Assembly: GCA_028697515.1 (NCBI GenBank)
Contig: JAQVEY010000015.1
Coordinates: forward strand, 1 to 15,056
Direction of reading: 5' to 3'
Source of the DNA: Bacteroidales bacterium
GTDB taxonomy: Bacteria > Bacteroidota > Bacteroidia > Bacteroidales > ML635J-15
Length of the DNA: 15,056 nt
This document shows positions 993 through 15,056 of this stretch, one piece after another; the stretch's first letter is position 1, and each line of letters starts with the position of its first letter. The position numbers were made by a program, and so were the translations under genes. A model generated the notes under the pieces. That model was not told the origin of the DNA and did not search any database. It was given only the letters and a program-made list of their open reading frames with translations.

Positions 993-2225
993 ATGACAGC
1001 AAAAATAAAACTGTTTACTATAATTGTATTAGTGTTAACGGTGTTTTGTGTTATTTCTTGTAAAAATGATGATACTAAACAAAATCTTGGACTGAATAAG
1101 GAATTGACTGAGGGAGTTAGTTCTGCCGATTCTGTTGTAATTAAGAGTGCGGAGGTTAAACTTAGTGAATTCTATATTTTATTAAAAGAATCAGATTTTG
1201 ACAGCTGTATTTATTTTTTTAAAAAAGAATTGTATTCCAACAACAACAAAGAATCCCTTGTTAAAGCTCTCGAGCAAAGAATAATTTCGATGGGTAAACC
1301 TGATAATTATAAAATCATTTACAATTACATCGATTATTTTCAAAATAAAGATACTGTTTACTATTTTATCTTAAGAGTATTTAATGAGCAAGGAGGGATG
1401 TGTTATGAAAAATATGGAATTGAGAATATTGATAAAAAATATGTGATAGGTCGTTATGAATATAGTCCTGTGCCATATATTGACACAAAAATTGCTAACG
1501 ATGAACGCTCTGAAATATATCAGGCTATAAATAATATTTATAAAATAATAAACTCTAAGGATTATGAAAAAGTTTTAACAATTGTTGATCAGAGTCTTAT
1601 TAACAAACAAGGGGAAGAAAAACTCATGGAAATGTTCCAGAACCAATTCAAAGATTATAAGAAAATCAATCAATTTGTTGTTAATTCAGTCAATGCAGAA
1701 ATTGTATCAGGAGCTATATACATAAATATGAGCTTGAATGTTGAGGATGCCAATAAATCGATCTTTAAGGAAAATATTGTTTTGATTGATAGGGCTGGAA
1801 CTTATTATGTTACAAATTATCAGAGAGAAAACGCAAATGATAAAGTAAATGCTGCAGAAGTTGTTTTAACCGATGAGCAATATGGCAGGTTTAAAAAGGA
1901 ATTTACTGTATTTTATCAAAACTTGTCTTCAAATAATATTGAAGTCATCATGTCAAAATTCGATAGCTCTGCATTTAATAAAAAGAGTTATAGTCAGATT
2001 AAAGATTATATTGTATCAAGAATTAATGATTATGGAATCCCTGTTGATACAAAAAAGACAGAACATTTAGTAAGATCTGTTAATGATTTTGTTGTAGTTG
2101 ATTTTTATATGAATGTTTCAAACTCAAAAGGAACTTTAACATACGAAAAGCTGAGTATTGGTTATAATGAAAAGACAGACTTTATGATTCTCGGTTATGA
2201 CTATTCACCAACTCCTTTAAAATAA
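993..2225 (+). CDS. Predicted surface lipoprotein with three internal ~110-residue repeats, function unknown
   Basis: A 410-residue protein begins with a lipoprotein signal: basic MTAKIK, a hydrophobic core to about residue 22, and a lipobox VISC with Cys23 as the acylated residue. The following KNDD resembles the Bacteroidota lipoprotein export signal (acidic residues shortly after Cys), so the outer face of the outer membrane is likely. By eye the mature part consists of three related segments, about residues 55-165, 172-283 and 298-410. Each has an alpha-helical start with a hydrophobic-acidic pattern and a beta-rich end. Segments 1 and 3 finish alike, with IGRYEYSPVP and LGYDYSPTP. This alternation resembles small NTF2-like or DUF4019-type secreted domains, but I do not recognise the family with confidence. 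It stands alone on the plus strand, divergent from ligA and convergent with the next lipoprotein. Nothing ties it to lysine metabolism. Confidence 0.8.
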   Translation: MTAKIKLFTIIVLVLTVFCVISCKNDDTKQNLGLNKELTEGVSSADSVVIKSAEVKLSEFYILLKESDFDSCIYFFKKELYSNNNKESLVKALEQRIISMGKPDNYKIIYNYIDYFQNKDTVYYFILRVFNEQGGMCYEKYGIENIDKKYVIGRYEYSPVPYIDTKIANDERSEIYQAINNIYKIINSKDYEKVLTIVDQSLINKQGEEKLMEMFQNQFKDYKKINQFVVNSVNAEIVSGAIYINMSLNVEDANKSIFKENIVLIDRAGTYYVTNYQRENANDKVNAAEVVLTDEQYGRFKKEFTVFYQNLSSNNIEVIMSKFDSSAFNKKSYSQIKDYIVSRINDYGIPVDTKKTEHLVRSVNDFVVVDFYMNVSNSKGTLTYEKLSIGYNEKTDFMILGYDYSPTPLK

Positions 2226-2250
2226 TCAGATTTTATAAAATTCTATTATT
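2221..2250. terminator. AT-only inverted repeat between convergent genes, possible bidirectional terminator
   Basis: AATAAT and ATTATT flank a perfect palindrome ATTTTATAAAAT (2230-2241), with three unpaired or wobble bases on each side. The structure spans the 20 bases between the two convergent stop codons and includes both of them. There is no G/C clamp, so as an intrinsic terminator it would be weak. Its position at a convergent junction is the main argument for it. Confidence 0.3.
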
Positions 2251-3493
2251 CCCAAGTAATAACTTTTGTAAATGCAGGCGTTTCCATATCACCTTCGTAA
2301 TATTCTATAGTTGCTGAGCCTGTTCCTTGCAAATTAAATAAGTATGTACAATTAGCATTTTGTACTTTGGCAGTAAAGGTCCAAATGCCATCTTCATATT
2401 CTCGTAGCCATTTACCATTATAAACTGACCAATCACAAAAACAACAATACATTCCTTCATCTGCCTCGCAAGTATTGGGTATAATTCGGATTTTTAAACT
2501 CCCTCCAACCGGGCAGGTTGCAGCAACAACGTGATATGAATATGAAGACGTTACTTCAAAATTTGTACTTTCTTTATGCAACAAATTTAAATATTCAGGA
2601 CCAGGGTCAGAATCAAAATCTGCACTAGACATTAAAGGATAAATATATTCAAGCACTACTTCGGGATCATACTTTATCTGGAACTGCCCGATATAGTACT
2701 CAAAATCAGGTATTTCAGCAGTTATTCCAAGTTCATTATATCTATTCTGGATATTCGTTCTTATGTTGCTGTAATTTAGAGTAGAAATATTATTAAGGAG
2801 TTGACTTATAATACTTTGATCGTCAATTTCTCCATTATCTTTCAAATCCAGATTTATTTTTGATGTTAATTCTGCAAGTTCTCCTGTTAGGCTTGATTGA
2901 TCCATAATACCAGTAAATCTTTGACAAATCAGAGAATATGCAAGCAGTAAACTATTCATATCTCCTTGTTCAATAATATTCAATTGGTCAAAATCATCAA
3001 CACTTGTTTGGATTACACCCAAGAAATTCAGAAACTCTGTTTTTGCCTGCGAATTAGCTTCAATATAGCTTTTCCCTTCGCTAATTAGTTGAATTACTCT
3101 GGGTTTTATAGCGTCTGTCATCAAATTGACGTTCATAATATCCTTGTCTGTGATATCAACAATTGTATTAAGTGTAAGCGGTCCGGAAGAATTTTGCCCT
3201 AATACCTCATTGAAATAATAACCGTTTGCTGATAGTAATACATAAGGGGTTTCTAATTCAATATTATCAAAACTGAAACTTCCATCATTTGAAGTGATTT
3301 CTGTTGTAAAACTTTTTCCAGTCTGTACAAGGTCTTCGTTTAATTCATAAGCAACTACTGTAGAGCCTATAAGGTAAGGTCCTTTCTGAACTTTCCCCGA
3401 AAAACTTTTGACAATTGCTTGGTCGTCCTTTTTACACGAGTTGAATGTAAGTGTAATAAAAACAAAAACAGATAATATGATTGCAGCTTTCAT
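2246..3493 (-). CDS. Predicted surface lipoprotein with N-terminal carboxypeptidase-regulatory-like beta domain and cysteine-rich C-terminus
   Basis: A 415-residue protein opens with a signal sequence (MKAAIILSVFVFITLTF) and lipobox FNSC, Cys20 being the lipidated residue. The next residues KKDDQ closely resemble the Bacteroidota surface-lipoprotein export signal. Residues about 30-110 (SGKVQKGPYLIGSTVVAYEL ... GSFSFDNIELETPYVLLSANGYYF) look like the beta-sandwich 'KGPY-GS' or carboxypeptidase-regulatory-like domain common in Bacteroidota lipoproteins. A mostly helical middle follows to about residue 280. The last ~100 residues are beta-rich and hold several cysteines (ATCPVGG, NTCEADEGMYCCFCDW, NANCTY), suggesting disulfides outside the cytoplasm. 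I do not recognise a specific function. It lies downstream of the lysine block on the same strand, but the strong terminator at 3547-3579 separates them, so it is probably its own unit. Confidence 0.8.
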   Translation of the reverse strand: MKAAIILSVFVFITLTFNSCKKDDQAIVKSFSGKVQKGPYLIGSTVVAYELNEDLVQTGKSFTTEITSNDGSFSFDNIELETPYVLLSANGYYFNEVLGQNSSGPLTLNTIVDITDKDIMNVNLMTDAIKPRVIQLISEGKSYIEANSQAKTEFLNFLGVIQTSVDDFDQLNIIEQGDMNSLLLAYSLICQRFTGIMDQSSLTGELAELTSKINLDLKDNGEIDDQSIISQLLNNISTLNYSNIRTNIQNRYNELGITAEIPDFEYYIGQFQIKYDPEVVLEYIYPLMSSADFDSDPGPEYLNLLHKESTNFEVTSSYSYHVVAATCPVGGSLKIRIIPNTCEADEGMYCCFCDWSVYNGKWLREYEDGIWTFTAKVQNANCTYLFNLQGTGSATIEYYEGDMETPAFTKVITWE

Positions 3494-3596: not shown

Positions 3597-4802
3597 TTAG
3601 ATATTTTTAATGATAATGGCAGTTCCCATACCACCACCAATACATAATGAAGCGAGACCAATTTTGTTATTATTGCGTTTCATTTCATAGATTAGACTGA
3701 CTATTATTCTGTTTCCGGAAGCTCCAATAGGATGTCCCAGAGCAATTGCACCACCGTTTTTATTACATTTTTCGTCAAAAAAATCTTTTGTTACGCCATG
3801 GTCATCACATAATTGTTTGATAACTCCCAGCGATTGAGCCGCAAATGCTTCGTTTAGTTCAAGTACTTCCATTTGTTCTAGCTTCATTTCGGCTTTAATT
3901 AAAGCATTTTTTATTGCTGGAACAGGTCCCATCCCCATAATTGAAGGATCAACGCCACCCTGACCTACAGAAACAATTTCGGCTAATGGAGTTAGATTAT
4001 GTTTTTTAACTGCATCTTCGCTGGCGATCATAAGATATGCAGCTCCGTCATTTATCCCCGATGCATTTCCAGCAGTTACTGTACCATCTTTTTTAAATGC
4101 AGGACGAAGCGTGCTAAGTTTCTCGAAATTTGTATTTCTATTAATGAATTCATCTGCATCAAATACAATGGTTTCCTTTTTGTTAACAATTGAAACTGGG
4201 ACAATTTCTTGTTTAAAATTTCCAGTATCTTGAGCTTTAGTAGCTTTTAGTTGAGATGCTGCTGCAAATTTGTCCTGCTCTTCACGTGTGATACTGTATT
4301 TCTCTGCTATGTTTTCTGCTGTAATTCCCATGTGATAATTATTGTAAATGTCCCATAGACCATCATATATCATGTGGTCTTTAACACTAAAGTCACCCAT
4401 TTTCACACCTGTTCTTACTGATGGAGGAAGTAACATAGCCGCACCTGACATTGTTTCTGTTCCTCCAGCAATAATGAGGTTTGCTTCGCCTGCACGAATG
4501 GCAGAATAAGCGTTTGATACAGCTTTCATACCTGAACCACAAACCATATTCAAAGAATATGCGGGTACCTCAGCAGGGATACCAGCTTTAATTGCACACT
4601 GACGACCAACCCCTTGTCCTTGTCCAGCAGAAAGGATATTCCCACTTATTACTTCGTCGATAAAAGAAGGATCTACTTTTGTTTCAGACAAAATTGACTT
4701 AATAACTTGTGCTGCGATATCAGATGCACTAAGTGTCGAAAGTGAACCGCCAAATTTTCCAATAGCTGTACGTTTTGCAGCTACAATAAATACTTTTTTC
4801 AT
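3597..4802 (-). CDS. Thiolase II (acetyl-CoA C-acetyltransferase)
   Basis: The product reversibly cleaves acetoacetyl-CoA with CoA into two acetyl-CoA, the last step of lysine fermentation, regenerating the acetyl-CoA used by Kce. I place the start at the ATG 4800-4802 (401 residues, MKKVFIVAAKRTAIGKFGG), the standard thiolase N-terminus. An in-frame ATG 36 bases upstream would add 12 residues atypical for the family. The catalytic set is complete: nucleophile Cys88 in NMVCGSGMKA, ELNEAFA at 315-321, His357 in GHPIGASG, and Cys387 in CIGGGMGTA. The length is usual for a degradative or biosynthetic short-chain thiolase. It is the last gene of the block, 60 bases after the CoA-transferase subunit, and is followed by a strong terminator. 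A beta-ketoadipyl-type thiolase is a less likely alternative given the context. Confidence 0.93.
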   Translation of the reverse strand: MKKVFIVAAKRTAIGKFGGSLSTLSASDIAAQVIKSILSETKVDPSFIDEVISGNILSAGQGQGVGRQCAIKAGIPAEVPAYSLNMVCGSGMKAVSNAYSAIRAGEANLIIAGGTETMSGAAMLLPPSVRTGVKMGDFSVKDHMIYDGLWDIYNNYHMGITAENIAEKYSITREEQDKFAAASQLKATKAQDTGNFKQEIVPVSIVNKKETIVFDADEFINRNTNFEKLSTLRPAFKKDGTVTAGNASGINDGAAYLMIASEDAVKKHNLTPLAEIVSVGQGGVDPSIMGMGPVPAIKNALIKAEMKLEQMEVLELNEAFAAQSLGVIKQLCDDHGVTKDFFDEKCNKNGGAIALGHPIGASGNRIIVSLIYEMKRNNNKIGLASLCIGGGMGTAIIIKNI

Positions 4803-4862
4803 TATAATATGTTTTAAAATGTTGTAATCGGATGACAATTGAAATAAGATAAGTAATTTAAT

Positions 4863-5522
4863 TTACTGTTTCATAGGTTTTAAATCATCTGCAATAATCA
4901 AATCTGCTTCTGTTGCAGCTTTGATATCATCAATTGAGAAGTCGGGATGTAATTCTTTGAGTACAATTCCTTTATCTGTTACCTCCATAAATCCCATTTC
5001 AGTAACAATAGTATTAACTTGAGCTTTTGCAGTAAGTGGTAAATTACATTTTTTTAGGATTTTTGGTTCACCTTTAGCAGTATGTTCCATTGCAAGAATT
5101 ACTCTTTTAGCACCGACAATCAAGTCCATTGCTCCTCCCATACCAGTAACTCGTTTCCCAGGAATAGCCCAGTTCGCGAGATCACCGTTTTGATCAACTT
5201 GCATAGCACCTAAGACAGTTACGTCAACATGTCCTCCTCTGATTATACCGAATGATTTTGCAGAATCGAATGCAGATGCACCGGGAAAAGAAGTAATAAA
5301 ACCACCACCCGCATTTATCATATTTTTATCTTCTGTGCCTGGGGCGGGAGTAGGTCCCATTCCAAGTAAACCGTTCTCGGATTGTAGAGTGACTTTTACT
5401 CCTTTGGGAAGATAATTTGGGACTTCGGTTGGAAAGCCTATACCTAAATTTACAACGTCACCATCTTTTAGTTCCAGAGCTACACGCCTGGCAATAACTG
5501 CTTTTACTTGATCTTTATCCAT
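4863..5522 (-). CDS. atoA: Acetoacetate/butyrate-type CoA-transferase, beta (B) subunit
   Basis: This 219-residue protein is a subunit B of the 3-oxoacid CoA-transferase family (AtoA/CtfB/ScoB type). It has the expected length, and the catalytic glutamate is at position 49 in SENGLLG, which forms the glutamyl-CoA thioester. Further family features are LGIGFPTEVPNYLP (26-39), GGGFITSFPGASAFDSA (72-88), RGGHVDVTVLGAMQVD (95-110) and NWAIPGKRVTGMGGAMDL (117-134). In lysine fermentation the enzyme moves CoA from butyryl-CoA to acetoacetate, yielding butyrate and acetoacetyl-CoA. The gene starts ten bases after kamE, so it is almost surely cotranscribed. The alpha subunit, normally adjacent, is absent on either side here; it may be upstream of kal outside the window or elsewhere. 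The exact substrate pair (butyryl-CoA versus another acyl-CoA) is inferred from context. Confidence 0.9.
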   Translation of the reverse strand: MDKDQVKAVIARRVALELKDGDVVNLGIGFPTEVPNYLPKGVKVTLQSENGLLGMGPTPAPGTEDKNMINAGGGFITSFPGASAFDSAKSFGIIRGGHVDVTVLGAMQVDQNGDLANWAIPGKRVTGMGGAMDLIVGAKRVILAMEHTAKGEPKILKKCNLPLTAKAQVNTIVTEMGFMEVTDKGIVLKELHPDFSIDDIKAATEADLIIADDLKPMKQ

Positions 5523-5532
5523 AACGATAGTA

Positions 5533-6324
5533 TTATTTTGTTTGTAATCTTCTGTTTAACTCTTGAGCAATATAACTGGCAACATCGTCAGCATAGGAAT
5601 TCATGCTAAATCCAGCATCATAACCTAGTTCTTTTGCAAGCTCATGACTTATTCTAGGACCTCCGCAAATGAGTAGAACTTTATCTCTTAAGCCTTCGGC
5701 TTCAAGCATTTCGACCAACTCGGTAAGGTTTTTTATATGAACGTCTTTTTGAGTCACTGTTTGAGAAACCAACATAGCGTCTGCTTTTAATTCAATCGCC
5801 TTTGCAATAAAGTCTTCATTTGATACTTGAGCTCCCATATTCAAAGCCTCAAACATTTCATATCGTTCAATTCCATAATGGCCTGCATAGCCTTTCATGT
5901 TCATAATTGCATCAATTCCAACAGTATGGGCATCGGTACCTGTACTTGCTCCGATGACGACAATTTTACGACCGATATTTTCTTTTATAAATGTATCAGT
6001 TCCTTTCATATCCATTTTGGTCGATTCAACTTTTGGAACATGAATAGAACTAAAGTCAACTGTATGTTTACATGTGCCATAGCAGTTAAAAAAAGTAAAA
6101 CCTTGTGTCAGCTCTTTGTAATATACAATCTGAGGGTTTTCAAATCCAAGTTTTTTTAATAATTGTTTTGCAGCTTCTATGGCTTCATCGTTGCATGGGA
6201 CAGGCAGAGTAAAGCTGAGTTGTACTTTGCCGTCATTCATTGTATCACCGTAAGGTTTTATTTTTTTTAAGTCAAGAGTCTGGTCAAAGTTTCTTTGATC
6301 CATCGAATATAGTCCACCACTCAT
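5533..6324 (-). CDS. kamE: Lysine 5,6-aminomutase, beta subunit (B12- and PLP-binding)
   Basis: KamE is the small subunit of the adenosylcobalamin- and PLP-dependent aminomutase that moves the terminal amino group of beta-lysine (or D-lysine) to the adjacent carbon. The 263-residue length matches the family (about 262). The base-off B12 motif GTDAHTVGID contains D131, H133 and G136, and H133 has the same number as the cobalt-ligating histidine of characterised enzymes. The lysine of MNMKGYAG is K144, matching the known PLP Schiff-base lysine K144. The N-terminal ~110 residues form the dimerisation part, followed by the Rossmann-like cobalamin domain (about 118-255, ending LLICGGPRISHELAKELGYDAGFS). 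Its ATG overlaps the kamD stop by one base (TAATG), implying translational coupling and the 1:1 stoichiometry of the alpha2beta2 enzyme. Identification is essentially certain. Confidence 0.97.
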   Translation of the reverse strand: MSGGLYSMDQRNFDQTLDLKKIKPYGDTMNDGKVQLSFTLPVPCNDEAIEAAKQLLKKLGFENPQIVYYKELTQGFTFFNCYGTCKHTVDFSSIHVPKVESTKMDMKGTDTFIKENIGRKIVVIGASTGTDAHTVGIDAIMNMKGYAGHYGIERYEMFEALNMGAQVSNEDFIAKAIELKADAMLVSQTVTQKDVHIKNLTELVEMLEAEGLRDKVLLICGGPRISHELAKELGYDAGFSMNSYADDVASYIAQELNRRLQTK

Positions 6325-6338
6325 TATTTTTTCCCTCC
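6322..6338 (-). promoter_or_regulatory. Shine-Dalgarno-like sequence and TAATG coupling at the kamD-kamE junction
   Basis: On the minus strand AAGGAGG, within the last codons of kamD (Lys-Gly-Gly), lies nine bases before the kamE ATG, which itself overlaps the kamD stop as TAATG. Most leaders in this window have no such purine motif, as is usual for Bacteroidota, so this one stands out. The motif also encodes conserved-looking protein sequence, so it may be incidental. Confidence 0.45.
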
Positions 6339-7883
6339 TTTCATTATTGCTATAAACGGATTAAAGTAATTATCTGATTTTTCAACTACACCAGACAATC
6401 CTTTTCCGCCTGTTTTGCTACGTTTAGTGTCGGCAAAAAGTCCTTTTTCAAGAGCATCAAAGAGACCTTCTTCTTCTATTTGGTGCAATAAGGACAATGC
6501 ATCATTAAGGACTTTGTGGGCTCTGTTTTGAATAATACCATTTTCCTTAAATTCGACCTCGTCACCGATATTTTTTAAATTATTAAAAATGTATTTGGCA
6601 TTCTCAATTGCAAGATATCTGTCCGACATAAACGGAGTATGCACAGCTTCTGTAATCATTCCTAGGAGTTGAATACCCTGACCAGTCCAAATAGAAATCT
6701 CATTAAAAAGAGCATTTTGAATCTGTCCACGAAATATATTCCCGGTCATAAATTTTGTTGGAGGCATATATTTTAAAGGAGCCTTAGGGAAAATTTCTCT
6801 TGTCATTTGAGCCTGTGCAAGTTCATATAAAAACCCGTTCTCCATATCAGGATTCATTTCAAAAGCATGACCTAATCCCATTTGTTCTTCGTGCATTCCT
6901 GCCAATAGAGCCAACTGCTCGTTGATTAAATCGGAAGCCAAAACAGTGTGAGCTTGTTCGAAAGCATCTGCAGTAGTAAGATAATTGTCTTCGCCTGTAT
7001 TTATTATAACTCCTGCAAATCCATTGATTATACGCGAAAAGTACTGATCAATTATTGTACGTTGCGGATTTATATCTCTGAATAAAATACCATAAAGAGC
7101 ATCGTTTAACATAACATCAAGACGTTCAAGGGCTCCCATAGCTGCAATTTCGGGCATACATAATCCTGAACAATAGTTACAAAGTCGAATATATCTTCCG
7201 ACCTCATTTCCTACCTCGTCAAGAGCTGCACGCATTATTCGAAAATTCTCCTGAGTGGCATAAGTGCCTCCGAAACCTTCGGTTGTCGCTCCAAAAGGAA
7301 CGTAATCTAATAGACTTTGCCCTGTAGTTCTAATTACCGCAATAATATCAGCTCCTTGACGCGCAGCAGCCTGTGCCTGAACGACATCTTCATAAATATT
7401 ACCCGTAGCTACAATAACATAAATATATGGTTTATTGCCTTCACCTAGTTGTTTTAAATAGTTATTTCGGGTTTTAACATTATTGCTTATCCTTTCGATA
7501 GTTGAATTTATATAAGGTTCAACTGCTGTTTTTATGGCTTTTAAAGGATTTACCTTTAGCTCAGTAATGTTAATTTCTTTATCTGCAATCTTTTCAGCAA
7601 TTTGTTGAGGAGTTAAACCTGTTTCAATTATTGCATTTCCAATAAAGAATAAAACTCCCTCTCTAAGTAATCCTTTTTCATGAATTTGATCTACAACTAT
7701 ATTTGGAAGTGGCACATCATTTTTATCAACTCCGTCAATCGATAATAATCTACAAAGTGTGCGTTCAACTGCAACTGTGGTGTAACAATCAACAAATTTC
7801 TGAACATCATAAGCAATTTTCCCTGATATTTTTTTTGCTTCTACAACCTTTCCAAAATCTAATCCTAATTTGCTGTTATTCAT
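6324..7883 (-). CDS. kamD: Lysine 5,6-aminomutase, alpha subunit
   Basis: KamD is the large TIM-barrel subunit of lysine 5,6-aminomutase; at 519 residues it has the family length. It supplies the barrel over which KamE's cobalamin swings to start radical chemistry on PLP-bound substrate. Visible blocks include IRTTGQSLLDYVPFGATTEG (184-203), RLCNYCSGLCMPEIAAMGALERLDVML (233-259), DALYGILFRDINPQRT (261-276), MHEEQMGLGHAFEMNPDMENGF (330-351) and KYMPPTKFMTGNIFRG (371-386). From memory of the Clostridium sticklandii enzyme, the residues contacting PLP or substrate are R184, S189, S238, Y263 and K370. Their counterparts here, all shifted by one, appear to be R185, S190, S239, Y264 and K371. The start ATG lies about 25 bases past a promoter-like element. 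It is coupled to kamE downstream, and kamC lies upstream. No truncation is apparent. Confidence 0.97.
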   Translation of the reverse strand: MNNSKLGLDFGKVVEAKKISGKIAYDVQKFVDCYTTVAVERTLCRLLSIDGVDKNDVPLPNIVVDQIHEKGLLREGVLFFIGNAIIETGLTPQQIAEKIADKEINITELKVNPLKAIKTAVEPYINSTIERISNNVKTRNNYLKQLGEGNKPYIYVIVATGNIYEDVVQAQAAARQGADIIAVIRTTGQSLLDYVPFGATTEGFGGTYATQENFRIMRAALDEVGNEVGRYIRLCNYCSGLCMPEIAAMGALERLDVMLNDALYGILFRDINPQRTIIDQYFSRIINGFAGVIINTGEDNYLTTADAFEQAHTVLASDLINEQLALLAGMHEEQMGLGHAFEMNPDMENGFLYELAQAQMTREIFPKAPLKYMPPTKFMTGNIFRGQIQNALFNEISIWTGQGIQLLGMITEAVHTPFMSDRYLAIENAKYIFNNLKNIGDEVEFKENGIIQNRAHKVLNDALSLLHQIEEEGLFDALEKGLFADTKRSKTGGKGLSGVVEKSDNYFNPFIAIMKGGKK

Positions 7884-7978: not shown

Positions 7979-9343
7979 TTACTCTAACTTGCTTCTGGTA
8001 ATTTGGATAAACTCAGAATCTACGTCTAATATTTCTGCAATTCTTATAGCTTCAGTAGGAACATCATCATTTTTTGTTTCCTGAAGTGAATAATCCATAA
8101 AGTCATTAATATTGTTAACTGTAATTTTATCAGTCTTTTTTATTCCACTAAGTCCCTTTACTTTAAGCCTGAAACAATTTGTTTTTATGCCGCTATAATG
8201 AGTTGTTATTAAGCAGCTAACTTTTAATTTAGACATTAATTGTAAATATGCTGCTACAAAAGCTTTTCCTTCGTCTGGATTTGTTGTTCTGGCAAGTTCA
8301 TCAACCAAGGCCAGAATTGTTTTCCCCGATTTAGCTTCCTTAATAATTTCGTTTATATTAAGCATTTCAACTGCAAATGATGACAAACCGTTCATTTCGT
8401 TTTGGTTATCACCGACACTCATCAAAATTTCATCAACAATTTTAATTTTTGCTGATTTTGCAGGAATAAAAAATCCAAATTGAAATAAATATTGACAGAG
8501 AGCAAGAGTCTTTAATAATACTGACTTTCCTGACATATTTGCTCCTGTTATAAGTATTGGTTCATTGTTTATGGAAATGTCAATAGGTTGAAATGATTTT
8601 CCTTTGTCAATAAGATTTTTACTTATTTGAGGATTGAAAACACCTCTGTACTCTGTTTTATTAGATACTTCAGGGCATACTAAATTCTGACTTATCGCTA
8701 ATTCAGCTTTAGCAAATATTATATCTATATGGGCAAATTGTTCAAGATTGTGACTTATCCTAGTCTCAAATTTTGCAAGTTCATGAGAAATATTTTGCCT
8801 AATTTTATCTTCAATTTCCTCACATTGTTCTCTTATTTTTTCAGCCTTTGTTTCATCTTGTACTAATTCCTTTTCTTTTCTGAGTTTTGATAGTTCATTG
8901 TCGTAAGCTGAATAAATATAAAAAGAAGGAATTCGTGATTTTTCAGGATCGAGAACATTTATAACATCTATTAAATCGAATATAATAATGTCATTAAAAC
9001 ATGACTTCTCAAAGGATTCTTTAATCTTTTCGGATACCAATGCGAATTTTTTAATTTCGAATAATGCTATATCATCTAAATTATTTTTTTCTGAAAGGAT
9101 TTTAAGGGATGAACTAATATCATTGATTTCGCATAGATAATGACTTAGTTTTTTATAGTTCTCAGTGTTTAGATAATTAATTGCTTTTGAGATACAAGAA
9201 AACAATGTCTCAAGTTCATCTCTTTCGGTAATAAACTTCGAATTTAATAGATTTTTCCTTCCGATAGAGGATTTAATATTGAGATTTTCATATATGAATC
9301 TAAGTCCGCTATTTTCTGCAATATGTTGTTTAAATGTTCTCAC
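7979..9343 (-). CDS. kamC: MutS-like ATPase of the lysine 5,6-aminomutase locus (probable reactivase ATPase KamC)
   Basis: This 454-residue protein has a MutS-superfamily ATPase domain in its C-terminal half: Walker A GANMSGKS (267-274), the MutS-type GLSSFAVEM segment (319-327), Walker B TILALVDEL (342-350, D348/E349) and TTHY (380-383). The N-terminal half is helical, with a charged coiled-coil-like stretch (about 145-190). It resembles the MutS lever/clamp more than a DNA-binding module, and mismatch-recognition domain I is absent. Classical mismatch repair is therefore unlikely. Genes of this kind sit beside kamD/kamE in other lysine fermenters and, from memory, are named KamC, ATPase of an aminomutase reactivase; I treat that role as probable, not proven. 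It starts with GTG at 9341-9343, overlapping the kamB stop as GTGA, which implies coupled translation. An ATP-driven conformational change that expels damaged cobalamin is the most plausible activity. Confidence 0.72.
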   Translation of the reverse strand: MRTFKQHIAENSGLRFIYENLNIKSSIGRKNLLNSKFITERDELETLFSCISKAINYLNTENYKKLSHYLCEINDISSSLKILSEKNNLDDIALFEIKKFALVSEKIKESFEKSCFNDIIIFDLIDVINVLDPEKSRIPSFYIYSAYDNELSKLRKEKELVQDETKAEKIREQCEEIEDKIRQNISHELAKFETRISHNLEQFAHIDIIFAKAELAISQNLVCPEVSNKTEYRGVFNPQISKNLIDKGKSFQPIDISINNEPILITGANMSGKSVLLKTLALCQYLFQFGFFIPAKSAKIKIVDEILMSVGDNQNEMNGLSSFAVEMLNINEIIKEAKSGKTILALVDELARTTNPDEGKAFVAAYLQLMSKLKVSCLITTHYSGIKTNCFRLKVKGLSGIKKTDKITVNNINDFMDYSLQETKNDDVPTEAIRIAEILDVDSEFIQITRSKLE

Positions 9344-10353
9344 AGCTTAATTGATTTTATGTCGTAAATTGGTATTCCTAAAGTTTGATATAGCTTATCA
9401 CAGAGTTTTTCAGAGTCAAGAATAAACCCTTCAGGTGAAACAGGATTTACGCAAACAGTTATAAGTTTTGCTTTAAGCAATACTTTAATTTTTCCACCTT
9501 TTGCTAAAAATACAGAATATTTCTCAGGACTAACAAAAATCTTTGTAAAATCTTTGACAACTATAGTTGTAGAGCTAATATTTTTCTGAAGTCTTGCAAA
9601 ATCAACTAATTTGTCAGTTAGAATACCGCTTACAAAAATAGTATTACCATGTCTGAACAATTTTTCAGTCGATTTTTCTAATAATAGACTTGATTTTATT
9701 TCAAGGTCATGAATTTTATTATTTTCATCAATAGCCCAAAGCCCTCGTTCGATAGAAAGCAAATCTTCTGATTCTGGAATTTCGAAAACATCAAGATTGA
9801 TTAATTGATGTACAAAGGCTGTTTTTTTTACGATACTATTTATGCTTGCTGATAGTGCGGCTCCAGTTGTCAAAATGATACTTTCAGTAACCGATGGTGA
9901 TCCTGGGCTTTTTCTTGAAATAGCTCCGTCAACTAAAATAATATCGGGATTATATTTATCTAATTCATTAATAACATTCTTAAGCCATACAGTATCAGAA
10001 GGTCCTGAAATAATTACTTTTCCCTTGTTTTGCGCTCTCGCAGTTACTAATCTGCCCAAAGCTGTTTGCTTTTCGGATAAATCAAGAATTTCTGCAATTA
10101 GTTGTTTTTGCCTGAAGTGTAGTTCGGATGTTACGAAAATATTTCCTCTTGTTAATTCAATTTCAGGTTTTGGGGTTTCAGTTACCTGGTCAATATTTTC
10201 ACCATCCGGACCAATTGAGCTAAGAGCAATTGTCTTGTTTTTTGCTTCAAGACGTTTAATTATATAGTTTAAACATTCAGTTTTGCCGGTATTTTTTTCC
10301 ATTCCGACAATCGAGAGGCTTTTGTGTTTTAATATTTCGTTAATAAATGGCAA
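9340..10353 (-). CDS. kamB: BioD-like P-loop NTPase of the lysine 5,6-aminomutase locus (probable reactivase subunit KamB)
   Basis: The 337-residue protein carries an N-terminal P-loop, GMEKNTGKTE (17-26), with the spacing G-x5-GKT seen in dethiobiotin synthetase (GTDTEVGKT), and a Walker B-like IILVDGA (138-144, D142). This suggests a SIMIBI-class (BioD/MobB/DUF1611-like) nucleotide-binding fold in the first ~165 residues. The rest has no motif I recognise. The start is the TTG at 10351-10353. An in-frame stop lies nine bases upstream of it, and the first in-frame ATG (residue 18) would cut into the P-loop. It is coupled to kamC by a four-base GTGA overlap and lies just upstream of kamDE. 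I assign it, from context and remembered family naming, as KamB, partner of the MutS-like ATPase in reactivating the B12 enzyme. Biochemical function is inferred. Confidence 0.65.
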   Translation of the reverse strand: MPFINEILKHKSLSIVGMEKNTGKTECLNYIIKRLEAKNKTIALSSIGPDGENIDQVTETPKPEIELTRGNIFVTSELHFRQKQLIAEILDLSEKQTALGRLVTARAQNKGKVIISGPSDTVWLKNVINELDKYNPDIILVDGAISRKSPGSPSVTESIILTTGAALSASINSIVKKTAFVHQLINLDVFEIPESEDLLSIERGLWAIDENNKIHDLEIKSSLLLEKSTEKLFRHGNTIFVSGILTDKLVDFARLQKNISSTTIVVKDFTKIFVSPEKYSVFLAKGGKIKVLLKAKLITVCVNPVSPEGFILDSEKLCDKLYQTLGIPIYDIKSIKL

Positions 10354-10539: not shown

Positions 10540-11781
10540 TTATTTATGTCTTTTTTTTCTCGAAAGACCTTCGGGTTCTAAGGACAATTGGTCGCCACGT
10601 AATAATGATGCTACACCTTCATTTTTTGTAACATCTTTACAATCTTCGCAGTCGCAATTATTAACATAATCGGTCGGTTCGGTATAAGTAGTAATCACAC
10701 CTTCGAAATTTCTTAAAACAACTTTACCGGGACTTTGTGAAATAATGTAAGTAGGCATGACCGGAATTTTCCCACCACCACCGGGAGCATCCACAACAAA
10801 AGTTGGAACAGCGTATCCTGATGTATGGCCACGCAAATTTTCAACTATTTCAATTCCTTTGGAAACTGGAGTTCTGAAATGTTCTAGTCCCATGGAAAGA
10901 TCGCACTGATAAATATAATATGGACGGACGCGAATCTTTACTAAATCCTGAACGAGTTTCTTCATTATATTAACACAATCGTTAACCCCTCTTAACAGAA
11001 CAGATTGGTTTCCAAGTGGAATTCCTGCATCTGCAATTTTTGCACAAGCGGCTGCCGATTCTGGAGTTACTTCTTTAGAGTGGTTAAAATGTGTGTTTAG
11101 CCATATTGGATGATATTTTTTTAGCATATTAACCAAGTCGTCAGTAATTCTTTGCGGACAGACAACAGGTGTGCGAGTTCCTATACGTATAATTTCGACA
11201 TGAGGTATTGCTCTCAGTCTTTGAATAATAGATTCTAGCATTTTGTCGCTTACCATCAGAGCATCGCCACCAGATAATAAGACATCGCGTACTGCTGGGG
11301 TTTTTGCTATATAATCAATAGATTTCTGTATCCTTTCTGATGGAGACTCTTTGTCTGTTTGTCCTGCAAAACGGCGTCTTGTACAATGACGACAATACAT
11401 AGAGCACATATCTGTAATCAAAAACAAAACTCTGTCTGGGTATCGGTGAGTAAGACCTGGAACGGGAGAATCTTCGTCTTCGTGCAGAGGATCGAGTAAG
11501 TCTGCTGCTGACTTATGGGTTTCAGCACCTGTCGGAATAGCCTGTTTTCTTACAGGGCAGTTTCTATCATTTGGATCAATTAGACTAAGATAATAAGGAG
11601 TAATAGCCATTCTTAAAGTTCTTAAAGATTGCGCAACACCTTCTTCTTCTTCTTTAGTAAGACTAATATATTTTTTTAATTCATCCAGAGTCTCAACCCT
11701 GTTTTTAACCTGCCATTTCCAATCGTTCCATTGTTCGTCTGTAACTTTTGGAAACATTTTTTTCCTTCCGTTATTAATCAT
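10540..11781 (-). CDS. kamA: L-lysine 2,3-aminomutase
   Basis: KamA is the radical-SAM, PLP-dependent enzyme that converts L-lysine to L-beta-lysine, the entry step of the pathway. All 413 residues align well with the clostridial enzyme from memory, one residue out of register. The [4Fe-4S] cysteines are C126, C130 and C133 in CSMYCRHC. The PLP lysine is K338 in PGGGGK. D294 (QCDLSMG) and D331 (VVDAPGG) match the aspartates that hold the substrate side-chain amine. C269, C376, C378 and C381 match the structural zinc ligands. The presence of the zinc-ligand tail and both aspartates favours a true lysine 2,3-aminomutase over EpmB/YjeK. The start MINNGRKKMF matches the clostridial N-terminus. 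It lies 11 bases after kdd2 in the same operon. Identification is firm. Confidence 0.97.
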   Translation of the reverse strand: MINNGRKKMFPKVTDEQWNDWKWQVKNRVETLDELKKYISLTKEEEEGVAQSLRTLRMAITPYYLSLIDPNDRNCPVRKQAIPTGAETHKSAADLLDPLHEDEDSPVPGLTHRYPDRVLFLITDMCSMYCRHCTRRRFAGQTDKESPSERIQKSIDYIAKTPAVRDVLLSGGDALMVSDKMLESIIQRLRAIPHVEIIRIGTRTPVVCPQRITDDLVNMLKKYHPIWLNTHFNHSKEVTPESAAACAKIADAGIPLGNQSVLLRGVNDCVNIMKKLVQDLVKIRVRPYYIYQCDLSMGLEHFRTPVSKGIEIVENLRGHTSGYAVPTFVVDAPGGGGKIPVMPTYIISQSPGKVVLRNFEGVITTYTEPTDYVNNCDCEDCKDVTKNEGVASLLRGDQLSLEPEGLSRKKRHK

Positions 11782-11792
11782 TTGTATCAGTA

Positions 11793-12827
11793 TTAAACGT
11801 ATAATTTTTCAAATAGACTTCTTATTTCCGGTGATTCTCTTAAAATGTTAAGAGTAAGACCAGCATGGCCTTTAGCATATCCATTCCCAACAATCAGATT
11901 TATGTCTTTACCAATTCCCTCAGCACCTAGAGCTGCTTTTGTAAACGATGTAGCCATTGAAAAGAAATATATTAATCCCTGTCCTTTTGTAATTAAAATT
12001 GATGTCATTTCGGTGCTGGGGACATTTACATTGTTTATTACAACTTCGCAACCTCTTTCTCCCGTAATTGCTGTAACTTTGTTATATACCTCCATAACAT
12101 TAGTGGCATCTGCAACAATTACATGATGTGCAAGTTTGAGATCAACTATTCTTTGAGCATTTTCGGGCGAATATTCTACAACTATTACTTTTCCAAAGCG
12201 GCCTACATTTTTCATTGCCTGATAGCAACATAGAATTCCAGATTTACCACCGCCACCGATAATACATACAGTATCGCCTTCTTTAACAAGTCGGTCAACC
12301 TGAGCAGGAGCCCCGGCAACATCCAGAGCAGCCAAAGCAAGTTTTTCAGGGATATCTTCAGGCAATATTGCGAAAATTCCACTTTCGAAAAGTATTGCTT
12401 CAGCTTTAACATCAACTTGGTCGTGTTGTGCGTCAAGTTTTACAATTTCGTGTATTTTTAAAGGAGTTAGGGACAATGAAACTAAAGTTGCGATTTTAGC
12501 TCCGACTTTCAGTTTTTTATCAGGGAAATTAGGCCCAATCTCTTTTACTGTTCCAATTAGCATTCCTCCTGAACCGGTAATTGGATTTTGCATTTTACCT
12601 CTTTCTTCGACGATAGACAAAATCATTTCTTTCATTTTCTGAGAATCGTCTCCACATGCTTTACGAATTTGAGTATAACTGGCAGAATCAATATTCAAAG
12701 TTTTCACATCAATTAATACCTCATTTTCATAAATGTTCATAGTATTATCCAACTTCAGTGCTGGTTGAGGTAAAGTTCCTTTTGGCTCTATAACCCTGTG
12801 AGTACCATATCTGCAGGCTTTTTCCAT
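11793..12827 (-). CDS. kdd: 3,5-diaminohexanoate dehydrogenase, second paralog
   Basis: A 344-residue member of the Kdd family, an alcohol-dehydrogenase-like NAD(P)-dependent enzyme that oxidises and deaminates L-erythro-3,5-diaminohexanoate to 5-amino-3-oxohexanoate. The nucleotide-binding loop is CIIGGGGKSGILCCY (188-202). Family blocks are RVIEPKGTLPQPA (11-23), NPITGSGGMLIGTV (81-94), ATLVSLSLTP (113-122), ALDVAGAPAQ (167-176), INNVNVPSTEMTSIL (264-278), FFSMATSFTKAALGAEG (288-304) and VGNGYAKGHA (313-322). It is clearly homologous along its full length to the next gene upstream, at roughly 55-60% identity by eye. Both keep every conserved block, so neither looks like a decaying copy. The ATG at 12825-12827 lies 79 bases after kdd1, across a hairpin. 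It may form hetero-oligomers with kdd1 or differ in substrate, stereoisomer or cofactor preference; the sequence cannot decide. Confidence 0.88.
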   Translation of the reverse strand: MEKACRYGTHRVIEPKGTLPQPALKLDNTMNIYENEVLIDVKTLNIDSASYTQIRKACGDDSQKMKEMILSIVEERGKMQNPITGSGGMLIGTVKEIGPNFPDKKLKVGAKIATLVSLSLTPLKIHEIVKLDAQHDQVDVKAEAILFESGIFAILPEDIPEKLALAALDVAGAPAQVDRLVKEGDTVCIIGGGGKSGILCCYQAMKNVGRFGKVIVVEYSPENAQRIVDLKLAHHVIVADATNVMEVYNKVTAITGERGCEVVINNVNVPSTEMTSILITKGQGLIYFFSMATSFTKAALGAEGIGKDINLIVGNGYAKGHAGLTLNILRESPEIRSLFEKLYV

Positions 12828-12841
12828 CTTCTGAATATATT

Positions 12842-12892
12842 AAAAAACTATTCGGGACATTTTAACTACAAAATTAGCTAAAATATCCCGAA
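12842..12892 (-). terminator. Long hairpin plus U-tract between the two kdd paralogs (terminator or attenuator)
   Basis: TTCGGGACATTTTA (12851-12864) pairs with TAAAATATCCCGAA (12879-12892) over 14 positions with a single mismatch, around a 14-base loop. Read on the minus strand the hairpin is followed after three bases by six Ts (complement of 12842-12847). This is the layout of an intrinsic terminator, placed just after kdd1 and before kdd2-kamA. The loop carries TAATTTTG (minus strand, 12869-12876), a match to the -7 promoter consensus, but without a clear -33 box. Partial termination would lower kdd2 and kamA relative to upstream genes; mRNA stabilisation is another possibility. Confidence 0.7.
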
Positions 12893-12906
12893 TTATGAAA
12901 TAAAAC

Positions 12907-13950
12907 TTAAGCGTAAAGTTCAGTAAATATTTTTCTTAATTTTTCACTTTCCTTTAATAAAGCTAGTGTGATTTCTGCATGTCCTTTTGTATAACCATTG
13001 CCAACAATCATTGTAACATCGCTTCCAACGCCTTCGGCACCAAGTGCTGCTTTTGTAAATGATGTTGCCATTGAAAAGAAATAAACGACGCCATCATTTT
13101 TTGTGCAAAGAATACTTGTCATTTCGGTATCTGGGATATTTACATTATTTATTGTGATATCCGCTAGCTGGCCATTTGTTATTTCTTCGATTTTTTCTAG
13201 AATTGCAACAGGCTGAGTTGCATCACCTGAAAAAACGTAATCACAAAAACCTAAGTCAATAAGACGCTTAGTACTTCTTTCACTATGGCATAATCCTATT
13301 ACTTTACCTGTGACACCTGCACGTTTTTTTGCTTCGTAGCAACATAGCATACCTGATTTTCCACCTGCACCTATTATTAATACATTATCACCTGGTTTTA
13401 CTAATTTTGCTGTTTGAGCGGGAGCACCTGCAACATCCAAAGCAGAAAGTACAAGACCTTCGGGCATGTCTTTAGGAATTTTTGCATAAATACCGCTTTC
13501 GAATAAAATAGCTTTACCATCAATGTCAACTTGGTCAATATCTGGACGAATATCTTTAATTTTGTCTATTCGTAATGGTGTTAGAGATAATGAAACTAGA
13601 GTCGCAATTTTATCACCTACTTTAAGGTCTGTTTTACCAATAAGAGCATCGCCGATTTTTTCGACAGTTCCTAGAAGCATTCCACCAGAACCCGTAACTG
13701 GATTTCTGTGTTTTCCTTGTTTTGCAACAATACCCATCATTATTTCAGCGATTTTTGCTTTGTCTCCACCGGCTTGTTCTTCAATTTGTGTAAAACTTGC
13801 AGAGTCAACATTTAAAGTTTGAACGTCAATCAGGATTTCATTATCCCAAATTTCATCCATATTATTATCTATTTTATTTGCCGGTTGTGGCAAGACTCCT
13901 TTTGGCTCTATCACTCTGTGAATACCATATTTACTACCTTTTTTCTGCAT
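12907..13950 (-). CDS. kdd: L-erythro-3,5-diaminohexanoate dehydrogenase, first paralog
   Basis: This 347-residue Kdd family protein catalyses the NAD(P)-dependent oxidative deamination of 3,5-diaminohexanoate, releasing the first ammonia and giving the substrate of Kce. The dinucleotide-binding loop is IIGAGGKSGMLCCY (192-205). Conserved blocks run RVIEPKGVLPQPA (12-24), NPVTGSGGMLLGTV (83-96), ATLVSLSLTP (116-125), ALDVAGAPAQ (170-179), INNVNIPDTEMTSIL (267-281), FFSMATSFTKAALGAEG (291-307) and VGNGYTKGHA (316-325). It lacks the zinc-ligand pattern of classical MDR alcohol dehydrogenases, as expected for Kdd. It starts 31 bases after kce and is followed by a hairpin and a second paralog. 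Being next to kce, it is the more conventional kdd by position, but which copy is the principal enzyme cannot be told from sequence. Confidence 0.92.
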   Translation of the reverse strand: MQKKGSKYGIHRVIEPKGVLPQPANKIDNNMDEIWDNEILIDVQTLNVDSASFTQIEEQAGGDKAKIAEIMMGIVAKQGKHRNPVTGSGGMLLGTVEKIGDALIGKTDLKVGDKIATLVSLSLTPLRIDKIKDIRPDIDQVDIDGKAILFESGIYAKIPKDMPEGLVLSALDVAGAPAQTAKLVKPGDNVLIIGAGGKSGMLCCYEAKKRAGVTGKVIGLCHSERSTKRLIDLGFCDYVFSGDATQPVAILEKIEEITNGQLADITINNVNIPDTEMTSILCTKNDGVVYFFSMATSFTKAALGAEGVGSDVTMIVGNGYTKGHAEITLALLKESEKLRKIFTELYA

Positions 13951-13981: not shown

Positions 13982-14806
13982 TTAATTTTGTTTTAATCCT
14001 AATATTTCTCTTGCTTCTGCAGGACTTGCAATTTCACGTCCCAGTTCTTTAGCCATTCTAACAACTTTGGCTACCAGTTCACCATTCGATTTAGCAAGAA
14101 CGCCTTTCGAAATAGATACATTATCTTCAAGACCTACCCGAACATGACCTCCGTCAATAATTGCTGCCATGGCTAGTGGAAATTCAAAACGTCCAACGCC
14201 GGCGACAGTGTATGTTGAGTTTTGCGGAATGCTGTTTCGCATAAATATAAAATCTCTTAGGCTTCCTCCAATACCACCCTGAACGCCATGGACAAAATCA
14301 AAATGCATAGGGTCTTTAATTATTCCTTTTTTATGTAGTCTTAAAGCGGTATCAATCATTGATTTGTCAAAAACTTCAAGTTCAGGTTTTACGCCCAATG
14401 CATTCATTTTTTCCGCGAAGTAAGTAATGGTTTTTTCTGTATTAACGAAAATATCTACCGGACCAAAATTCAAAGTTCCGCAGTCAAGAGTTGCCATTTC
14501 GGGAACAAGTTCGAGAGGTTGAAGTCTTTCATCATCTGACATTCCTACTGCACCACCTGTTGAAGGTTGAATAATTACATCGGGGACTTCTTTTTTTATT
14601 GCATCAATGATTTGTTTAAATCTATCTCTGTCCTGAGTAGGAGTTCCGTCATCCCATCTCACATGAAGATGAATTATGCTTGCACCCGCCTCATAAGATA
14701 GTTTAGCTTCTCTAACAAACTCATCAACTGTATAAGGAACCGCAGGATTATGTTCTTTTAACACTTCTGCTCCACAAATTGCTGCGGTGATAATTAGTTT
14801 CTCCAT
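13982..14806 (-). CDS. kce: 3-keto-5-aminohexanoate cleavage enzyme (BKACE family)
   Basis: Kce condenses 5-amino-3-oxohexanoate with acetyl-CoA and cleaves it to acetoacetate and L-3-aminobutyryl-CoA, in a zinc-dependent, thiamine-free reaction. The 274-residue length is typical. Zinc ligands are H46 and H48 (IIHLHVR) with E227 in GGHVRVGLEDN. Catalytic counterparts of E14, R226 and D231 of the structurally characterised Cloacimonas enzyme appear as E14, R223 and D228. Other family features are QPSTGG (80-85) and CGTLNFG (109-115). BKACE proteins act on varied beta-keto acids, but the genes around it (kal, kdd, kamA) make the lysine-pathway substrate by far the most likely. The ATG lies four bases after the kal stop, so the two are cotranscribed and probably translationally linked. 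The leader (TAAAAATATG) has no Shine-Dalgarno sequence, as usual for Bacteroidota. Confidence 0.95.
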   Translation of the reverse strand: MEKLIITAAICGAEVLKEHNPAVPYTVDEFVREAKLSYEAGASIIHLHVRWDDGTPTQDRDRFKQIIDAIKKEVPDVIIQPSTGGAVGMSDDERLQPLELVPEMATLDCGTLNFGPVDIFVNTEKTITYFAEKMNALGVKPELEVFDKSMIDTALRLHKKGIIKDPMHFDFVHGVQGGIGGSLRDFIFMRNSIPQNSTYTVAGVGRFEFPLAMAAIIDGGHVRVGLEDNVSISKGVLAKSNGELVAKVVRMAKELGREIASPAEAREILGLKQN

Positions 14807-14810
14807 ATTT

Positions 14811-15056
14811 TTATTTTTTACGTTGACAATTCTTTGGGACTACACATGTTCCGCTGGCACGGCAAACAACAATAGGCTCTTCAAGGAAATCTGCGGCAGA
14901 ATCGCTTAGGTCAGGGCGAGGTTTAATAACTTTTTTCGCTTCAAAAATCATTTTTCTTGAAGAATTCCCGACACTGACTATTTCACCTGTGGCTTCGATA
15001 AAGTCTCCTGCATAAACTGGTGCTAGAAATTCTACTTTATCATAAGCAGCAAATAA
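14811..15056 (-). CDS. kal: 3-aminobutyryl-CoA ammonia lyase, C-terminal part (runs off right edge)
   Basis: The minus strand is open from the window edge to a TAA at 14811-14813, giving 81 C-terminal residues starting [20 protein letters not shown]. The [33 protein letters not shown] stretch is characteristic of Kal, a small hotdog-fold enzyme of about 130 residues that eliminates ammonia from L-3-aminobutyryl-CoA to give crotonyl-CoA. So roughly the last 60% is present; it is cut by the window boundary, not broken. The tail has three cysteines ([15 protein letters not shown]). It is immediately upstream of kce, four bases apart, as in other lysine-fermentation clusters. The operon promoter and any genes before kal lie outside the window. 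Confidence 0.92.

Follow-up and report, generated by a model that had tools for sequence, protein, structure and literature searches.

A candidate maintenance factor of lysine 5,6-aminomutase: the P-loop protein KamB and the MutS-type ATPase KamC in a Bacteroidales lysine-fermentation cluster

The lysine-fermentation cluster and the kamB-kamC pair

The stretch of DNA analysed here, hereafter referred to as the window, is 15,056 nucleotides long and carries a lysine-fermentation cluster on its minus strand. The cluster runs from a truncated kal through kce, kdd, a second kdd, kamA, kamB, kamC, kamD, and kamE to genes for a CoA-transferase subunit B and a thiolase. Its features are as follows:

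14811..15056, minus strand: kal, partial, 3-aminobutyryl-CoA ammonia lyase (NF052388, 105.9 bits, model positions 47-120 of 120)
13982..14806, minus strand: kce (NF052387, 434.2 bits, cut-off 382)
12907..13950, minus strand: kdd, 3,5-diaminohexanoate dehydrogenase (NF052381, 272.6 bits, cut-off 200)
11793..12827, minus strand: second, diverged kdd copy, with 58% identity to the other kdd (NF052381, 276 bits, cut-off 200)
10540..11781, minus strand: kamA, lysine 2,3-aminomutase, a radical SAM enzyme (TIGR03820, 631.1 bits, cut-off 525.4)
9340..10353, minus strand: kamB, predicted SIMIBI-class P-loop NTPase, 337 aa, TTG start
9340..9343, minus strand: GTGA overlap of the kamB stop and the kamC start, read from the sequence
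7979..9343, minus strand: kamC, predicted MutS2-type core ATPase, 454 aa, GTG start
6324..7883, minus strand: kamD (NF052384, 918.2 bits, cut-off 600)
5533..6324, minus strand: kamE, lysine 5,6-aminomutase beta (B12-binding) subunit (NF052385, 414.1 bits, cut-off 280; PF02310, B12-binding)
4863..5522, minus strand: 3-oxoacid CoA-transferase subunit B (TIGR02428, 314.5 bits, cut-off 243.55)
3597..4838, minus strand: acetyl-CoA C-acyltransferase, a thiolase (TIGR01930, 476.1 bits, cut-off 240.55)

The kal score falls below the NF052388 cut-off of 160, as expected for a gene cut by the window edge. On the minus strand, the overlap of kamB and kamC reads ...aagctGTGAgaaca..., and an earlier note on this DNA had described a two-gene module of 337 and 454 aa with a GTGA overlap placed directly before kamD and kamE. 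The coordinates, lengths, and strand of this module were all confirmed, and the motifs listed for it are all present, namely GMEKNTGKT (G-x5-GKT) and IILVDGA in KamB, and GANMSGKS, LVDEL, and TTHY in KamC.

Searches returned 1770 KamB relatives at E<=0.001 and, among 8000 candidates scored, 2126 relatives of KamC, a number that may include some MutS proper; we therefore regard kamB and kamC as real genes. The long start of KamB is backed by many relatives of 334-347 aa that align over 98-100% of the query, but a later start was called in the database entry for the same protein (P0001) and in its three nearest relatives, which gives lengths of 318-320 aa. One 609-aa relative of KamC (P0135) has an internal repeated stretch and is probably an assembly duplicate. 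When the spacing of 50 KamB-KamC pairs was read from 82 loci, 49 of them fell within -60 to +200 bases; the exact 4-base overlap occurs in 10 of the 50 and is not a trait of the family.

Other features of the window were also observed. The two kdd genes form a tandem pair (11793-13950), and two kdd genes are likewise present in 12 of the 45 fetched loci that have a kdd reading frame. No recognisable subunit A was found within the window beside the gene for CoA-transferase subunit B (4863-5522). A truncated NAD-dependent DNA ligase gene, of which the window edge leaves only the start, lies at 1-891, and two long frames at 993-2225 (plus strand) and 2246-3493 (minus strand) begin, by eye, with lipoprotein-signal-like sequences and gave no Pfam match over the cut-off and no NCBIfam match.

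Families and predicted folds of KamB and KamC

The earlier note gave KamB and KamC as possible names for genes of this kind and suggested a search against these families, among others. Both names proved correct, as the two proteins exceed the curated cut-offs of equivalog families in NCBIfam release 20.0: NF052386 for KamB ('lysine 5,6-aminomutase reactivase subunit KamB', 338.3 bits, cut-off 210) and NF052383 for KamC ('lysine 5,6-aminomutase reactivase ATPase KamC', 438.5 bits, cut-off 300). Because both are named there, we rejected the idea of a new, unnamed system, and the pair in itself is no new find. The window proteins are like the NCBIfam KamB and KamC in the cut-offs that they pass and in their position beside kamDE, and we saw no essential difference between them. 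At 454 aa, KamC compares with an NF052383 model of 508 positions, and its score is lower than that of the Acetoanaerobium protein (538.9 bits) and that of the Fusobacterium protein (556.1 bits). The term 'reactivase' may itself have been predicted from gene neighbourhood. Relatives of KamB carry varied public names (KamB, hypothetical protein, molybdopterin-guanine dinucleotide biosynthesis protein, and CobW-like GTP-binding protein), and those of KamC are often annotated as 'DNA mismatch repair protein MutS'. We found no study of KamB/KamC function in the open-access literature; a figure legend in a 2011 paper labels one gene of such a cluster 'MutS family' and goes no further (PMC3149608).

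Pfam gave no family for KamB. In its predicted structure we recognised the SIMIBI fold, with BioD and SRP GTPases (tied) as the apparent nearest folds and IcmF and MeaB after them; this assignment rests on a second-look aligner, and Foldseek alone gave TM-scores of only about 0.2-0.3. The description of KamB as a BioD-like P-loop protein in the earlier note stands as far as the fold is concerned, BioD being among the nearest, but does not extend to the family, as no BioD match was found in Pfam or NCBIfam at E<=0.1. A match to DUF1611, for which a search had also been suggested, was absent from Pfam at E<=0.1. There is a weak P-loop likeness to MobB, the molybdopterin-guanine dinucleotide protein B (TIGR00176, 16 bits, E 0.0096), but this is far under the cut-off of 76.2 bits and limited to residues 14-42. 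MeaB and the G domain of IcmF, which are chaperones of B12 mutases, belong to the same fold class as predicted for KamB. However, KamB differs from them in having no conserved [NT]KxD guanine motif, which occurs in 20 of 243 sequences and most often (13) at residues 220-239, in having no MeaB match in Pfam or NCBIfam, and in being paired with a MutS-type protein.

KamC is predicted to fold as a MutS2-type core, and both parts of the MutS superfamily core fold, the helical lever and the ATPase domain, were found in the model. MutS_V was the only Pfam family above its cut-off, and neither a mismatch-recognition nor an Smr domain was found in Pfam at E<=0.1, in agreement with the earlier claim of a complete set of MutS-type ATPase core motifs with no mismatch-recognition domain. 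The curated MutS and MutS2 cut-offs were missed (TIGR01069, 184.1 of 400 bits; PRK05399, 136.1 of 480; TIGR01070, 114.5 of 641.7). Across 51 KamC sequences, comprising 49 from Bacteroidota (the window included), one from Fusobacterium, and one from Acetoanaerobium, the T-G-x-N-M-x-G-K motif is kept in 51/51, the GLSS serines in 50-51, the D-E pair in 51, and the histidine in 51/51. In the tree, KamC makes up one side of a branch, separate from MutS and MutS2. The closest likeness in the modelled lever and ATPase fold is to the core of MutS2, whose complex with a collided disome has been solved for B. subtilis (7qv3), but in KamC no Smr domain was found, it stands apart in the tree and under the MutS2 cut-off, and its expected client is another one. 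A role in phage defence was considered and rejected, with PADLOC giving KamC four matches of at most 28.1 bits around the P-loop and KamB none.

Co-occurrence with lysine 5,6-aminomutase

For a survey of the order to which the window belongs, we used an even draw of 198 genomes. KamD is present in 26 of these, and KamB in exactly the same 26. The chance of two sets of 26 coinciding would be about 10^-32 for independent genomes; as these are not independent, the value says no more than that the sets are identical. KamC exceeds its cut-off in 25 of the 26 and in none of the other genomes of the survey; in the 26th (G261), the KamC reading frame runs off the contig end. Below the cut-off, NF052383 matches something in 196/198 genomes because the model also picks up ordinary MutS and MutS2. 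KamB and KamC lie within 3 kb of each other in 21/25 genomes. KamB does not lie within 10 kb of KamD in 10/26, and in five genomes kamB and kamC form a pair while kamD lies elsewhere, so inheritance as an operon does not by itself explain the pattern. The co-occurrence of KamB and KamD outlives the break-up of the operon, and some of the separations may be contig breaks.

The second set consisted of the best 80 of 323 confirmed KamB loci on GTDB contigs, all Bacteroidota by title and with genomes partly shared with the 198-genome survey. In the fetched flanks of these best 80 of 323 loci, KamC was found in 49 and KamD in 36. Whole-genome searches of the remainder recovered KamC in 29/31 and KamD in 40/44 (39 over the cut-off and one cut by a contig end), for totals of 78/80 genomes with KamC and 76/80 with KamD. 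These whole-genome searches gave no KamD match in G465, G476, G480, and G483 and no KamC match in G457 and G476, five genomes in all, each a MAG by its title. The earlier note had tied the pair to a B12-dependent aminomutase and had proposed a gene-neighbourhood survey, and our results bear the link out: KamB tracks KamD in 26/26 cases, occurs in none of the 198 order genomes without KamD, and is accompanied by it in 76/80 genomes of the locus set.

Among 72,556 plasmid records, KamB occurs only in two chromosome-sized ones, Fusobacterium vincentii NZ_CP084075 and Acetoanaerobium noterae NZ_CP154629. The records with KamD are these two again. At 2.1 and 2.6 million bases, respectively, they look like chromosomes filed as plasmids. 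KamB and KamC are over the NCBIfam cut-offs in both species, and the gene order in both records is kce-kdd-kamA-kamB-kamC-kamD-kamE. The former Clostridium sticklandii, the organism of the first studies on lysine 5,6-aminomutase, is placed in the genus Acetoanaerobium (PMC3958899).

Other enzymes do not show the same pattern. KamA is over its cut-off in 32/198 genomes, seven of which have neither KamB nor KamD, and we rejected it as the partner of KamB on this ground. A general B12 maintenance factor was rejected as well, since methylmalonyl-CoA mutase is present in 172/198 genomes and KamB in 26. The sister enzyme ornithine aminomutase has an unrelated accessory protein in the two loci examined, as a GlmL-type protein (PF13941) adjoins it in G156 and in A. 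noterae (NF040744, 691.7 and 752.3 bits, cut-off 600). Ornithine aminomutase is present in G156, a genome from the phylum draw with a weak KamD match, and KamB was not found there; A. noterae has one KamB only, beside KamDE. The GlmL-type accessory of ornithine 4,5-aminomutase and glutamate mutase resembles KamBC in being the adjacent gene of a sister B12 aminomutase, but it belongs to a different family, and no match to it appeared in Pfam and NCBIfam searches of KamBC.

Some further arrangements were seen in these genomes. In 17 of the 80 loci (L012-L020, L022, L025, L032, L054, L062, L065, L067, and L070), kamA and kamB are adjacent (17-427 bases) with no kamC in the fetched flanks; the flank past kamB reaches its full 10 kb in 11 of them and stops short of that in the rest. 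In L089 and L092, one locus from Acetoanaerobium and the other from a member of the window's phylum, a GlmL-type gene comes immediately after oraS-oraE. The window's own genome (assembly 91% complete, 453 contigs) gave no methylmalonyl-CoA mutase match.

Possible functions of KamBC

Published work attributes the inactivation of KamDE to the transfer of an electron from cob(II)alamin to the substrate or product radical, which leaves cob(III)alamin. Such suicide inactivation is described in a 2025 paper as an obstacle to the use of lysine 5,6-aminomutase as a biocatalyst, and in a term search, 'reactivat-', KamB, and MutS were absent from the text of this paper on the inactivated enzyme (PMC12429584). 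Recombinant KamDE is reported to be active alone, to inactivate with substrate, and to show no ATP-dependent allostery (PMC3958899); as it is active without KamBC, the pair is dispensable for catalysis itself. The same source recounts that the enzyme has an auxiliary protein of about 80 kDa that activates it, E2, which is known from the Stadtman laboratory in the 1970s and is described there without a gene. E2 is reported to have shown AdoCbl synthetase activity, to have made E1 respond to ATP, and to pass label from ATP to E1 (PMC3958899). OraS has also been reported to restore ATP regulation to KamDE (PMC3958899), and an ATP effect therefore does not single out KamBC.

We believe that KamBC is probably a dedicated NTP-dependent maintenance factor of KamDE. 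Together, KamB and KamC would form an ATP-dependent activating or reactivating factor of this B12- and PLP-dependent lysine 5,6-aminomutase, with KamE as the likely client. KamC would contribute the lever and ATPase core, presumably as a dimer by analogy with MutS proteins, and its ATP-driven lever would grip and open KamDE such that dead cobalamin leaves KamE and is replaced by AdoCbl from the housekeeping adenosyltransferase. The lever step is modelled on diol dehydratase reactivase and on the ribosome-acting MutS2. KamB would be the second switch, of the SIMIBI type and probably ATP-using, which may couple KamC to the client or sense the state of the client, as its fold and strict pairing suggest. 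These specific lever and expulsion steps are drawn by analogy and are put forward tentatively. Diol dehydratase reactivase (DdrAB) carries out the ATP-driven release of damaged cobalamin, the same job as expected for KamBC, but its large subunit is Hsp70-like, a fold unlike those of KamBC, and no sequence match to it appeared in Pfam and NCBIfam searches of the pair.

KamBC is a good candidate for the E2 activating protein of the Stadtman laboratory, but we think this identity less likely than not. In Acetoanaerobium, KamB (37.4 kDa) and KamC (57.0 kDa) would add up to 94.4 kDa as a 1:1 pair, which fits the 80 kDa of E2 only loosely, and a KamB dimer would have 74.8 kDa. Neither of the predicted folds would explain the AdoCbl synthetase activity of E2, which could have come from a PduO-type adenosyltransferase, found elsewhere in 3/3 genomes or records tried.

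The AdoCbl synthetase activity of E2 and the label that it passed from ATP to E1 (PMC3958899), together with the fold class that KamB shares with MeaB and the IcmF G domain, would also suit a factor that loads or adenosylates KamDE, charging the apoenzyme by MeaB/MMAA-like gating or by adenosyl transfer from ATP and removing no damaged cofactor. We consider this unlikely: the PduO-type enzyme is encoded elsewhere in all three cases tried, KamB has neither an adenosyltransferase match in Pfam or NCBIfam nor a conserved guanine motif, and the MutS-type partner would be left unexplained. A role for KamBC as an allosteric regulator that senses ATP and activates KamDE when ATP is present, with no repair function, is quite improbable. 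ATP did regulate the native enzyme with E2 present, and recombinant KamDE lost this regulation (PMC3958899), but the catalytic residues of KamC (Walker B D-E, histidine, and GLSS serines) are kept in 50-51 of the 51 sequences, a pattern that suggests work driven by ATP and not the sensing of a ligand, and KamBC need not be the source of a regulation that OraS can restore (PMC3958899).

That KamBC acts as a chaperone in the assembly of KamDE, or of a different pathway enzyme such as KamA, seems slightly less credible still. The 17 loci with adjacent kamA and kamB and no kamC in the fetched flanks speak for it; against it, KamA occurs in 7/198 genomes without KamB while the KamB and KamD sets are identical, and recombinant KamDE is reported to be active without KamBC (PMC3958899). 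We give almost no credence to KamC being a DNA-acting MutS paralogue that entered the operon by accident, a reading that would accord with its MutS-type ATPase core and with its frequent public annotation as a mismatch repair protein. KamC is far under the MutS and MutS2 cut-offs, no mismatch-recognition or Smr domain was found in it (Pfam, E<=0.1), it groups separately in the tree, and it is strictly paired with KamB and KamD; a DNA-repair MutS was rejected on domains, cut-off scores, and tree.

Maintenance of KamDE by KamBC can be set in a broader reading, which we consider less likely than not. KamC would be a MutS-type lever ATPase that no longer acts on nucleic acids at all and, with KamB as its SIMIBI switch, mechanically opens a metabolic B12/PLP enzyme so that the dead cofactor is exchanged; the pair would correspond to E2; and the lysine and ornithine aminomutases would use the unrelated KamBC and GlmL for the same job. 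The strict phylogenetic profile makes KamBC an obvious addition to the KamDE assay. If KamBC does reactivate the enzyme, it would represent a MutS-type ATPase with a metabolic enzyme as its client and would differ, as a B12 reactivase, from those of the Hsp70-like, GlmL-like, and MeaB-like kinds.
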